From an uncultured Pelagibacteraceae bacterium (GTDB lineage Bacteria > Pseudomonadota > Alphaproteobacteria > Pelagibacterales > Pelagibacteraceae), in contig CACIZB010000002.1 in assembly GCA_902591025.1 (NCBI GenBank), forward strand, positions 62,001-126,000: a DNA stretch of 64,000 bases, in the 5' to 3' direction. Within the stretch, counting starts at the first letter, position 1; each line of letters opens with the position of its first letter. The notes beneath the pieces are model-generated. The model made no database searches. It had not been told where the DNA came from and was given only the letters and a program-made list of their open reading frames with translations. A program made the translations under genes and the position numbers. Of this stretch, positions 14,008 through 17,649 are shown piece by piece.

Positions 14008-14421
14008 ATGATATTTTTCAAAAAAAAAGAAAATATTGATGACAATCAATTAGTAAAAATTGGAGCATTATTAATACATGCAGCTAGAATAGATGAGGAT
14101 TTCACTCAAGAAGAAGAAAATATTATTAAACAAACACTAATAAACTTAGATGCAAGAAATGAAAATATAGATGAAGTCATTGAAAAAGCAAAAAAGATGG
14201 AAGAAAGTTCTAATCAAATTTTAGATTTCACAAAAGAAGTTAAAAATATGGAGGAAAATAAAAAAATAAAGATTGTTAAAACTTTATGGAAAATTATTTT
14301 CTCTAATAAAAAAGCTGATGTATTCGAGGCTAATCTCATGAGACGACTTGCTGGATTGCTATACATTGACAGTAAAATTATGGGGGATATAAAAGAACAA
14401 ATAAAAAAAGAAAATTCTTAA
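14008..14421 (+). CDS. TerB-family protein
   Basis: 137 aa acidic helical protein resembling the TerB domain ([46 protein letters not shown]). Confidence 0.7.
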
Positions 14422-14747
14422 TGACATACATTGTTAATGATAAATGCATCAAATGCAAACTAATGGATTGTGTTGAGGTTTGCCCAGTAGATTGTTTTTA
14501 TGAGGGTAAAAATATGCTTGTAATTAAACCTGATGAGTGTATAGATTGTGGCGTTTGTGAGCCTGAGTGTCCCGTTGATGCTATTAAAGCAGATACAGAA
14601 CTAGGTTCTGAAAAATGGCTTGAAATAAATGAGAAATACTCAAACATCTGGCCCAATATAAATACAAAAAAGGATCCACCTTCGGATCATGAGAAGTATA
14701 AAGATGAAGAAAATAAGTTTGAAAAATATTTTAAAGAAAACATTTAA
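14421..14747 (+). CDS. fdxA: Ferredoxin, FdxA type
   Basis: [29 protein letters not shown]...[16 protein letters not shown] cluster-binding motifs. Confidence 0.93.
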
Positions 14748-15573
14748 AAAAAAATCAAAAAAAATCATCAAAAAAAACTTAAAAAAGTCATCCAAAAAAA
14801 ATATTTTAAAATCAAAAAAAAAAATATCCAAAAAACTTTTAAAGCCTAAACTTAGAAAAGACCTTGAAAAAAAACAAAATATTAAAAATAATAAGGTATC
14901 TGAGTCAAATAAAGAAAACCTAAGAATTTCAAAAACAAATGAGTTAAAGCCTGAAATTAAAAAAGTTAAGAAACAAGAAACTGAAAAAAGAAACTATAAA
15001 ATTAAAGATTATATTGTTTATCCTAAACATGGAGTAGGTCAAATAACAGAGTTTAAAAAAATTAACATAGGTGGTATCGATGTGGAAACTTATGTCATAA
15101 AATTCGAAAAAGATAAGGCAAATGGAATGGTGCCCGTTAATAAACAATCGCATCTTCGCCCCCTAGCGACTATTAATCAAGTTAACAAATGTATTTCGAT
15201 TTTAAAAAGTAAACCAAAAATTAAAAGATCAATGTGGAGTAGGAGAGCTCAAGAATATGAGGCGAAAATCTCATCTGGAAAAATTTATGAATTGGCAGAG
15301 GTAGTTAGAGATTTAAATAAAGGTGATGACCTTATGGTTGATCAGTCCTATAGCGAAAGACAGCTTTTTGAAAAAGCATATGAAAGAATTTTATCTGAAT
15401 TTAAGATAATATTAAACTTTTCTATGGAAGAAACACAAAAAAAATTGGATAAAGCATTGAAAAGGAATTCAGAAAATTCTCAAAATGTAAAGCCAGATCC
15501 TATAAAAACTGTTTCAACAGACCTTTCGGATGATGAGCCTGTCACTGAAACTGAGGAAAATTTAGAGCAATAA
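14689..15573 (+). CDS. carD: CarD-family transcription regulator with Lys-rich N-terminal extension (start may be 14704)
   Basis: [40 protein letters not shown]... CarD core; ~100 aa Lys-rich preface; overlaps fdxA 3' end. Confidence 0.88.
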
Positions 15574-15574
15574 A

Positions 15575-15614
15575 AAAACGCTTCTCACACGTAAATCGTT
15601 ATGAGAAGCGTTTT
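15575..15614 (+). terminator. Rho-independent terminator after carD
   Basis: AAAACGCTTCTCA ... TGAGAAGCGTTTT perfect 13-bp stem immediately after the carD stop. Confidence 0.85.
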
Positions 15615-15634
15615 AATTTAAGAATACTAAGTTT

Positions 15635-15712
15635 TTATCTTCTTCTTCTTTTTTTAGCTTTTTTCTTAGCTTTTTTCTTAGCCTTCTTCGCTTTTTTTCT
15701 TCTCTTAGGCAT
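15635..15712 (-). CDS. Putative 25-aa extremely basic micropeptide
   Basis: Frame checked codon by codon: MPKRRKKAKKAKKKAKKKAKKRRRR*; upstream TAAGGGAGCTAAAG-ATG provides a Shine-Dalgarno. Confidence 0.65.
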   Translation of the reverse strand: MPKRRKKAKKAKKKAKKKAKKRRRR

Positions 15713-15909
15713 CTTTAGCTCCCTTATTTAGTTAAACGAATCAAAATGATTCGTTATTAACTTATTTTTATTTTTTTATACACGTTATGTCAATTATTTA
15801 ATTGAAGTAAAAATTTTAAAAAAAAATGTTAAATAAAAAAATTTTAAGAAAATTTTTAATGTGGAAAAAGTTAATGTTTATGCGCTTTATAATCTATTTT
15901 TAAGTTAAA

Positions 15910-17649
15910 TTAATAAAGTTTTTCTAAATCTTCTTTATATTTTTCTAAAATTTTTTTTCTTTTTATTTTTAAAGTTGGGGTTAACATTCCATTTTCAATT
16001 GTAAATTCGTCATAAATTAATTTAAATTTTTTAATTTTTTCAGTTATTGACAAGTTTTTATTTAAGTTTTCAATGTAAAGTTGGATTTCTTTATTATTTT
16101 TTTCACTTTCGGTCACAATTAGGGAGACTAAGTAAGTTTTTTTATCTCCATAAACGAAACTTTGTTTGATTTTCTCATTAAGGCATAACAAATTTTCAAT
16201 TTTTGATGGTGAGATGTTATCTCCACCGAGATTAACTATTATTTCTTTTTTTCTATCAGTAATTTTTAAATTTCCCTCTTTAGTTATCTCACCGATGTCG
16301 CCTGTATGCAACCAACCATCTTTTAAAACCTCGTCAGTTTCTTTTTTCATATTCCAGTAACCAAGCATTACATTTTCACCTTTTACTAAAATTTCTCCGT
16401 CTTCGGCAATTTTTACTTTATTTGTTTTAAAAGGCGGACCAACAGTCTCGATTTTTATTTTCCCTGGAATATTACAGCTCACTACAGGAGAAGTTTCTGT
16501 CAAGCCATACCCTTGTAAGGTTGGCAAACCTATAGAATTCAAAAATTCACCTATTTTTTGATCTAAGGCCCCACCACCAGAAACAAAGGCCTCTAGTTCT
16601 CCACCAAACTGATTTTTGATTTTTCTTCTCACTAAAATTTCACAAAAAAAATTCGTAATTTTTTCTCTAAGATTTAATTCCTGTTTATTTAAATTTTTAG
16701 TGCCTATTAAAATAGTATTTTCTATTAATTTTCTTTTTAATCCTTTTTGTTTTGAAAAATTGAGAAAAATTTTACTATATAAATTTTGATAAAATCTTGG
16801 TACAGCAGTCATAATGGTAGGTTTTGCAATAGCCATATTAGGTAACAGTTTTTCTAAACTTTCAGCATAGTAAATTTTTGATCCAAATAAAATTTGGACA
16901 TATTGAACAGTATGTTCGTATGAATGGGACAATGGAAGCCATGTTAAAAAAACAGGTTTTTTATCTTTAACTAATAATTCTAGAATTTCTTTTGCACCTT
17001 CACAATTTGATAGAATACCTCCATGACTTAACATTACTCCTTTTGGATACCCAGTAGTCCCTGATGTGTAAATAATACAGGCTAAATCATTTCTTTTTAA
17101 ATCTTTATTATAAAGGTTAATATTCTTAAGAAAATCTTCAGAGTAAGGTTCTGCTATTGAAAAAATATCTTCAAAGAATTTTATTTTTTTATCAAATTTG
17201 TCGATTGAAATAACGATCGTGTTTTCCCTTATATGATTTTTAATTTTATCAAATTGAAAAGAATTCGAGACAATACAAACTTTTGGGGCACAATCATTAA
17301 TAATATATTCATAGTCATTTTCAGAATAGGTTGTAAAAAGTGGAACAGTTACCCCACCTGCATTCATTATTGCTATATCAGATATCAACCATTCAGGTCG
17401 ATTTTCTGATAATAGAACACACCTATCACCCTTAGAAATATTTTTTTTCAAATAGTTTGATAATATCTTTATTTTTAAATAAATATTTGCCCACGAATAT
17501 GAAAATGGTCCAGAATTAGTATCTGAAAAATCTTTATTTTTAAGTGAAACTAAAAAAGTTTCTTTATGAACATTAATTTTTTTAGAAAAATTTTCTTCGT
17601 ATTTAAGAAAAAAAAGCTCAACTAAACTATTTATCTCTTTTAATTCCAT
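15910..17649 (-). CDS. AMP-dependent long-chain acyl-CoA synthetase
   Basis: 579 aa; IIYTSGTTGYPKGVMLSH, GYGLTETSPVVS, GWLHTGDIGEI, DRKKEIIVNLGGDNISP. Confidence 0.93.
   Translation of the reverse strand: MELKEINSLVELFFLKYEENFSKKINVHKETFLVSLKNKDFSDTNSGPFSYSWANIYLKIKILSNYLKKNISKGDRCVLLSENRPEWLISDIAIMNAGGVTVPLFTTYSENDYEYIINDCAPKVCIVSNSFQFDKIKNHIRENTIVISIDKFDKKIKFFEDIFSIAEPYSEDFLKNINLYNKDLKRNDLACIIYTSGTTGYPKGVMLSHGGILSNCEGAKEILELLVKDKKPVFLTWLPLSHSYEHTVQYVQILFGSKIYYAESLEKLLPNMAIAKPTIMTAVPRFYQNLYSKIFLNFSKQKGLKRKLIENTILIGTKNLNKQELNLREKITNFFCEILVRRKIKNQFGGELEAFVSGGGALDQKIGEFLNSIGLPTLQGYGLTETSPVVSCNIPGKIKIETVGPPFKTNKVKIAEDGEILVKGENVMLGYWNMKKETDEVLKDGWLHTGDIGEITKEGNLKITDRKKEIIVNLGGDNISPSKIENLLCLNEKIKQSFVYGDKKTYLVSLIVTESEKNNKEIQLYIENLNKNLSITEKIKKFKLIYDEFTIENGMLTPTLKIKRKKILEKYKEDLEKLY

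Follow-up and report, generated by a model that had tools for sequence, protein, structure and literature searches.

A very short Lys/Arg-rich peptide gene convergent with carD is conserved across the order Pelagibacterales (SAR11)

RESULTS

A complete small gene downstream of carD

The stretch of DNA analyzed in this study (64,000 nucleotides, here termed the window) derives from a member of the genus Candidatus Pelagibacter and contains a 336-bp gap between carD (positions 14689 to 15573, plus strand), which was assigned on the basis of its Pfam domains CarD_TRCF_RID and CarD_C and by synteny, and a gene encoding an AMP-binding acyl-CoA ligase (positions 15910 to 17649, minus strand; Pfam AMP-binding). 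This gap holds a 25-codon open reading frame (ORF) on the minus strand (positions 15635 to 15712, stop codon TAA included), convergent with carD, whose product, MPKRRKKAKKAKKKAKKKAKKRRRR, comprises 13 Lys, 6 Arg, and 4 Ala among its 25 residues, with a sole Pro at residue 2. A first-pass annotation had described an intact ORF of this composition in a long intergenic gap convergent with carD, and the sequence at these positions reads MPKRRKKAKKAKKKAKKKAKKRRRR* exactly. The GGGAG Shine-Dalgarno (SD) sequence which it noted is also present, its distance from the ATG being 6 nt rather than the claimed 8 nt or so. The promoter, leader hairpin, and strong terminator described below did not feature in that annotation.

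The SD and its spacer, GGGAGCTAAAG (positions 15713 to 15723, minus strand), are invariant across the 12 closest orthologues and are preceded by a predicted leader hairpin, AACGAATCA-TTT-TGATTCGTT (positions 15735 to 15755, minus strand), which is expected to lie at the mRNA 5′ end and to start 2 to 3 nt from the transcript terminus. Further upstream lies a promoter-like region (positions 15764 to 15793, minus strand; 10/12 matches), composed of TTGACA (15793 to 15788) and an A/T-rich -10 region (15770 to 15764), which is conserved among orthologues. The gene ends in an intrinsic terminator (positions 15572 to 15614, minus strand) predicted from its fold, with the stem AACGCTTCTCA...TGAGAAGCGTT followed by a T-run; it is kept by orthologues and is a back-to-back structure common to the peptide gene and the 3′ end of carD. 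The short spacer ACTTAGTATTCTT (positions 15615 to 15632), which separates the stop codon from the terminator, is well conserved in the closest orthologues. The 201-nt region containing the gene folds 4.6 standard deviations better than its shuffled counterparts (z = -4.6). The locus is, thus, a complete small gene with promoter, 5′ hairpin, SD, ORF, and terminator, and the acyl-CoA ligase gene, its upstream same-strand neighbor, forms a separate transcription unit. A role as a regulatory upstream ORF or leader peptide does not fit this arrangement, as it is the terminator and a convergent gene that come after the ORF.

The product of carD, an RNA-polymerase-binding regulator, carries a Lys-rich N-terminal extension here (window positions 14689 to 14860). 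This extension is long, occurs in the SAR11 genomes examined, and was also observed in some other alphaproteobacteria (e.g., loci L167, L169, L172, and L175). The listed carD start at position 14689 produces a 59-bp overlap with a ferredoxin gene (positions 14421 to 14747), and an internal Met (MKKISLKN), which matches relatives, may represent the true start.

Distribution within the genus and across the order

A strict signature composed of the hairpin arms followed by the leader-SD-ATG segment (CGAATC-hairpin-GATTC...GGGAGCTAAAGATG) was found once each in 102 of the 117 sampled members of the genus, and the reversed-pattern control returned 0 matches. Among the 15 genomes without the strict signature, a looser pattern recovered four with intact genes: in G156 the SD is altered, and the genes of the remaining three differ in small ways. 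In G004, the locus is broken at a contig end, and in G091, G138, G164, and G176 the whole locus probably falls in an assembly gap, because the carD domain match is also missing from these genomes. The other six are G178, G183, G189, G205, G206, and G213.

When carD was used as an anchor, a K/R/A-rich ORF convergent with it was present in 16 of the 16 genomes with enough downstream sequence, spanning 10 genera (Candidatus Pelagibacter and nine further) and two families, i.e., the Pelagibacteraceae (genera g1, g5, g6, g7, g8, and g9) and a sister family (g2, g3, g4, and g10). In a 17th carD-anchored genome (G029), the contig ends within the locus, yet the 3′ end of the same gene is visible. No K/R/A-rich gene was detected downstream of carD in any of 20 other alphaproteobacterial families; an Arg-rich ORF near carD in one GC-rich genome among these was judged to be unrelated. 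The sister-family forms (40 to 91 amino acids [aa]) start with ME[ED]LK.[IL]FA, after which KKAKKKAAPKKK repeats follow. Because they share the carD neighbor, TTGACA, the CGAATCA leader hairpin, and a G-rich SD, these forms are treated as orthologues on the basis of synteny and leader rather than peptide alignment. The gene is, therefore, a dedicated small gene conserved throughout the order Pelagibacterales (SAR11), and it is also carried by the cultured strain HTCC9565 (locus L087).

The tblastn-type protein search suggested in the first-pass annotation did find orthologues, yet it recovered only 7 of 41 relatives, as low complexity defeats tblastn scoring, and searches based on DNA similarity and synteny provided the rest. 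Contig 13 of another Pelagibacter genome, G017 (L027, approximately 1333 to 1760), encodes a distinct, strongly Lys-rich protein containing (K)nV/A repeats.

The reading frame is under selection

The 68 distinct loci specify 46 peptides, among which 24 different lengths between 20 and 91 aa occur, and all are in frame; most of the Pelagibacteraceae have forms of 20 to 41 aa, and sister-family forms reach 91 aa. By contrast, the non-coding hairpin-to-ATG and stop-to-terminator distances show no preference for multiples of three. Some loci were gathered by patterns which required a start codon, an SD, and a hairpin, so that intactness is an unbiased observation only for those found by DNA similarity or carD synteny, and these are intact as well. 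No frameshift, loss of start or SD, or change of frame that would contradict the earlier proposal of a genuine micropeptide gene was encountered.

A pooled, order-wide dN/dS of 0.47 was set aside as unreliable because the alignment of the repeats is ambiguous, and same-length groups were therefore used. The comparison of synonymous and non-synonymous change, as had been recommended at first pass, yielded 15 synonymous and 4 non-synonymous changes within these groups, where approximately 79% non-synonymous changes are expected under neutrality. The synonymous excess was significant (P < 0.01) in three of the four groups and not significant in the MAKRR27 group. Among the 12 closest sequences, variable columns amounted to 78% upstream of the -35 element, 0% (0/12 columns) in the SD, and 7.7% in the coding sequence. 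The reading frame of the peptide is under selection, and conservation of the gene strongly implies that the peptide is translated and plays a cellular role; the low divergence at synonymous sites indicates that the RNA may be constrained too. High expression was not supported by codon bias, since that of the peptide gene departs from that of ribosomal genes (AAG, 28.9% versus 16.6% in the ribosomal-protein cluster).

The leader hairpin

The hairpin was present in 60 of 60 distinct leaders, in which its stability exceeded that of at least 98% of composition-matched shuffles, with one exception at 92.5%. Its 5′ arm, CGAATC, is constant in 68 of 68 loci, approximately 30 of which were retrieved by a pattern requiring CGAATC and the rest without that requirement. 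The 3′ arm and the register shift among genera: the arm reads GATTCGT in Pelagibacter and GATTTGT in g8 and g9, and g6 and g7 form stems such as TCACTTAAA/TTTAAGTGA. The leader thus appears to behave as a selected RNA hairpin with an extra constraint on its 5′ strand.

Two DNA-level explanations were considered and abandoned. This genome contains the palindrome CGAATC-N3-9-GATTC at a single location, and a transcription factor regulon was rejected because each of the four genomes tested has the paired CGAATCA site at one location only. The palindrome holds two GANTC sites, and methylation control via such paired sites was dropped as a general explanation because genera g5 to g7 keep one site only yet retain the hairpin.

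Peptide composition, predicted shape, and relation to known families

The 39 distinct short-form peptides contain 60 to 86% Lys plus Arg (K+R) and no Asp or Glu. Their small residues (Ala, Thr, Gly, or Ser) avoid the i+2 position (5 observed versus 44 expected) and favor i+4 (90 versus 47), with preferred spacings of 3/4, 7/8, and 11. Such residues may sit on one face of a helix, a pattern which the 9/12-nt repeat and shared descent would also produce. AlphaFold2 modeled the 30-aa form as a single helix (pLDDT, 95), although single-sequence predictions of AKKK helices represent weak evidence; poly-Lys peptides usually remain unfolded in the absence of a binding partner.

The peptide has no match among the known families in the libraries searched. 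Neither the 25-aa form nor the 58- to 91-aa forms matched Pfam or NCBIfam, whose models are insensitive to low complexity, and a PDB search, similarly insensitive for such sequences, returned no match at E values up to 10. The peptide does not contain the PF00216 (HU/IHF) fold, and HU/IHF are encoded by separate genes, with two to three PF00216 matches per genome; they resemble the peptide as small basic nucleoid proteins of the same genomes and differ from it in constituting a folded family of approximately 90 aa.

The closest resemblance is to H1-like proteins of the Hc2/BpH1/AlgP type, as the peptide displays Lys/Arg and Ala (Pro/Thr) repeats without acidic residues and size polymorphism by whole repeats with the frame retained. 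Charge is, as in Hc2 (hctB) and BpH1, spread along the repeats. Length differences within Hc2 (165 to 237 aa) and BpH1 (182 to 206 aa) arise from Lys-rich repeats; Hc2 condenses DNA and, by binding RNA, represses translation (PMC2848022). The SAR11 peptide is, in contrast, mostly 20 to 41 aa long and at most 91 aa in the sister family, lacks a Pfam match, and occupies a different gene context. The H1-tail-like K/A/P repeats of the C-terminal KPAA domain of AlgP/PhaF provide a second parallel, the sister-family form having AAPKKK repeats, and binding of KPAA peptides to DNA has been shown in vitro (PMC9239181). AlgP is, however, a 352-aa protein with a 124-aa N-terminal helical domain; no such domain was found at any of the 68 loci, the peptide having no other domain and its short forms being mostly without Pro. 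The likeness to histone H1 tails asserted at first pass is strengthened by the syntenic, K/A/P-rich forms of the sister family.

A search of the available literature returned no report of a Lys-rich peptide in SAR11. A 2019 intergenic survey of SAR11 strain HIMB5 predicted at least three unnamed short ORFs, which may include the carD-adjacent locus, and a carD-linked Lys-rich peptide is not described in the sections of that survey examined (PMC6429828). The main text of a structured-RNA survey of P. ubique makes no mention of histone, lysine, or CarD.

DISCUSSION

Proposed function and alternative explanations

The gene is envisaged to produce a free-standing polycationic peptide whose Lys and Arg residues would contact phosphate backbones, mainly those of DNA, without sequence specificity, thereby neutralizing backbone charge and compacting the nucleoid alongside HU/IHF; secondary RNA binding is plausible. 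The peptide may adopt, on a polyanion, a helix with Ala on one face, given that Ala positions recur at helical spacing. The 5′ hairpin probably serves to stabilize this short mRNA or to adjust its expression, perhaps through feedback by the product. We regard such a minimal histone-H1-tail-like role as having an even chance of being correct, and it is favored because composition and repeat behavior are closest to those of Hc2/BpH1 and the AlgP repeat domain. Binding to nucleic acids (DNA, RNA, or ribosomes) is, nonetheless, suggested by composition, and the same composition would bind rRNA, mRNA, and other polyanions; furthermore, the presence of canonical HU/IHF genes implies that the nucleoid is not short of proteins. 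The target could be DNA or rRNA, and the main rival is a ribosome- or rRNA-associated basic micropeptide which, like eL41 or bTHX, would stabilize rRNA or ribosomal subunits. These tiny basic ribosomal proteins have a fixed length and occupy specific rRNA pockets. A length of 20 to 30 aa (eL41 and bTHX being of approximately 25 aa), extreme basicity, a MAK(R)RKK start, and an RRRR end recall such proteins, and the SD is very conserved. The peptide is, by contrast, AKKK-repetitive and of variable length, and its 20- to 91-aa range, gain and loss of internal repeats, and Pro-rich sister forms are unlike the occupant of a fixed rRNA pocket; neither a constant length nor relatedness to a solved chain was found, the PDB search being insensitive to low-complexity queries. 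The more than fourfold range of lengths makes a role as an integral ribosomal protein less likely, and we consider the ribosomal explanation doubtful overall.

It is rather improbable that the transcript, with its 5′ hairpin, purine-rich body, and terminator, acts as a regulatory or dual-function RNA to which the peptide is secondary. The conservation of the hairpin, the strong terminator, the conserved spacer after the stop codon, and the very low divergence even at synonymous sites would suit such an RNA, yet changes of length by whole codons, the preservation of SD and start codon, and the synonymous excess indicate selection on the peptide, no acidic codon occurs despite the purine-rich stretch, and Rfam matched two tRNAs only in the window and nothing over the peptide locus. 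Binding to polyphosphate or another non-nucleic-acid polyanion appears more improbable still. It is suggested by the Lys-rich repeat domain of AlgP, which positions polyphosphate granules (PMC9239181), and by a polyphosphate kinase (PPK) gene in this genome. PPK (PF02503; sites at G000:C8:22885-23415 and L184) was, however, detected in just 3 of the 12 genomes tested, one of which is this genome, and a polyphosphate-only role is disfavored because it is absent from several complete genomes (G012, G043, G041, G044, G045, and G180; single contig, 99 to 100% complete), and the peptide gene is present in every one of them. A small cationic peptide gene with its own promoter and terminator might suggest an antimicrobial or toxin function, or part of a type I toxin-antitoxin system; this is very improbable here, as the short forms have no hydrophobic face and hence no membrane-active surface, no signal sequence is present, and the syntenic position is fixed across the order, unlike that of mobile toxin-antitoxin modules. 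The A-rich genome and low-complexity sequence could, finally, generate a spurious ORF in A/G-rich non-coding DNA, a possibility that we consider refuted. Among 241 ATG-initiated ORFs of 18 to 40 codons in the window, the next-highest K+R fraction was 0.36 (0.76 for the peptide), first-order Markov sequence (60 × 64 kb; 3.8 Mb) reached a maximum of 0.50 with none at or above 0.60 and so never approached the peptide, and SD, start, stop, and terminator are conserved in more than 100 genomes.

Extended to the whole order, the nucleoid proposal would make the peptide a protamine-like or H1-tail-like core nucleoid or charge-neutralizing factor whose level is set by the hairpin, possibly through binding of the peptide to its own leader; this broader version is tentative and falls somewhat short of an even chance. 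At down to 20 aa, the peptide would be, to our knowledge, the shortest dedicated bacterial nucleoid protein.

Implications for SAR11

SAR11 constitutes one of the most abundant groups of ocean bacteria, and its genomes are among the most streamlined of those of free-living bacteria. Despite this streamlining, almost all of the genomes examined, from two families, have retained this tiny gene together with a promoter, leader, and terminator of its own, and the presence of the gene in cultured strains such as HTCC9565 renders it directly testable. Should the proposed function be correct, very short basic genes can escape both family libraries and standard proteomics, the latter because trypsin would destroy the product. 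If the peptide does compact DNA or protect RNA, it would show how little sequence is needed to make a nucleoid-type protein.
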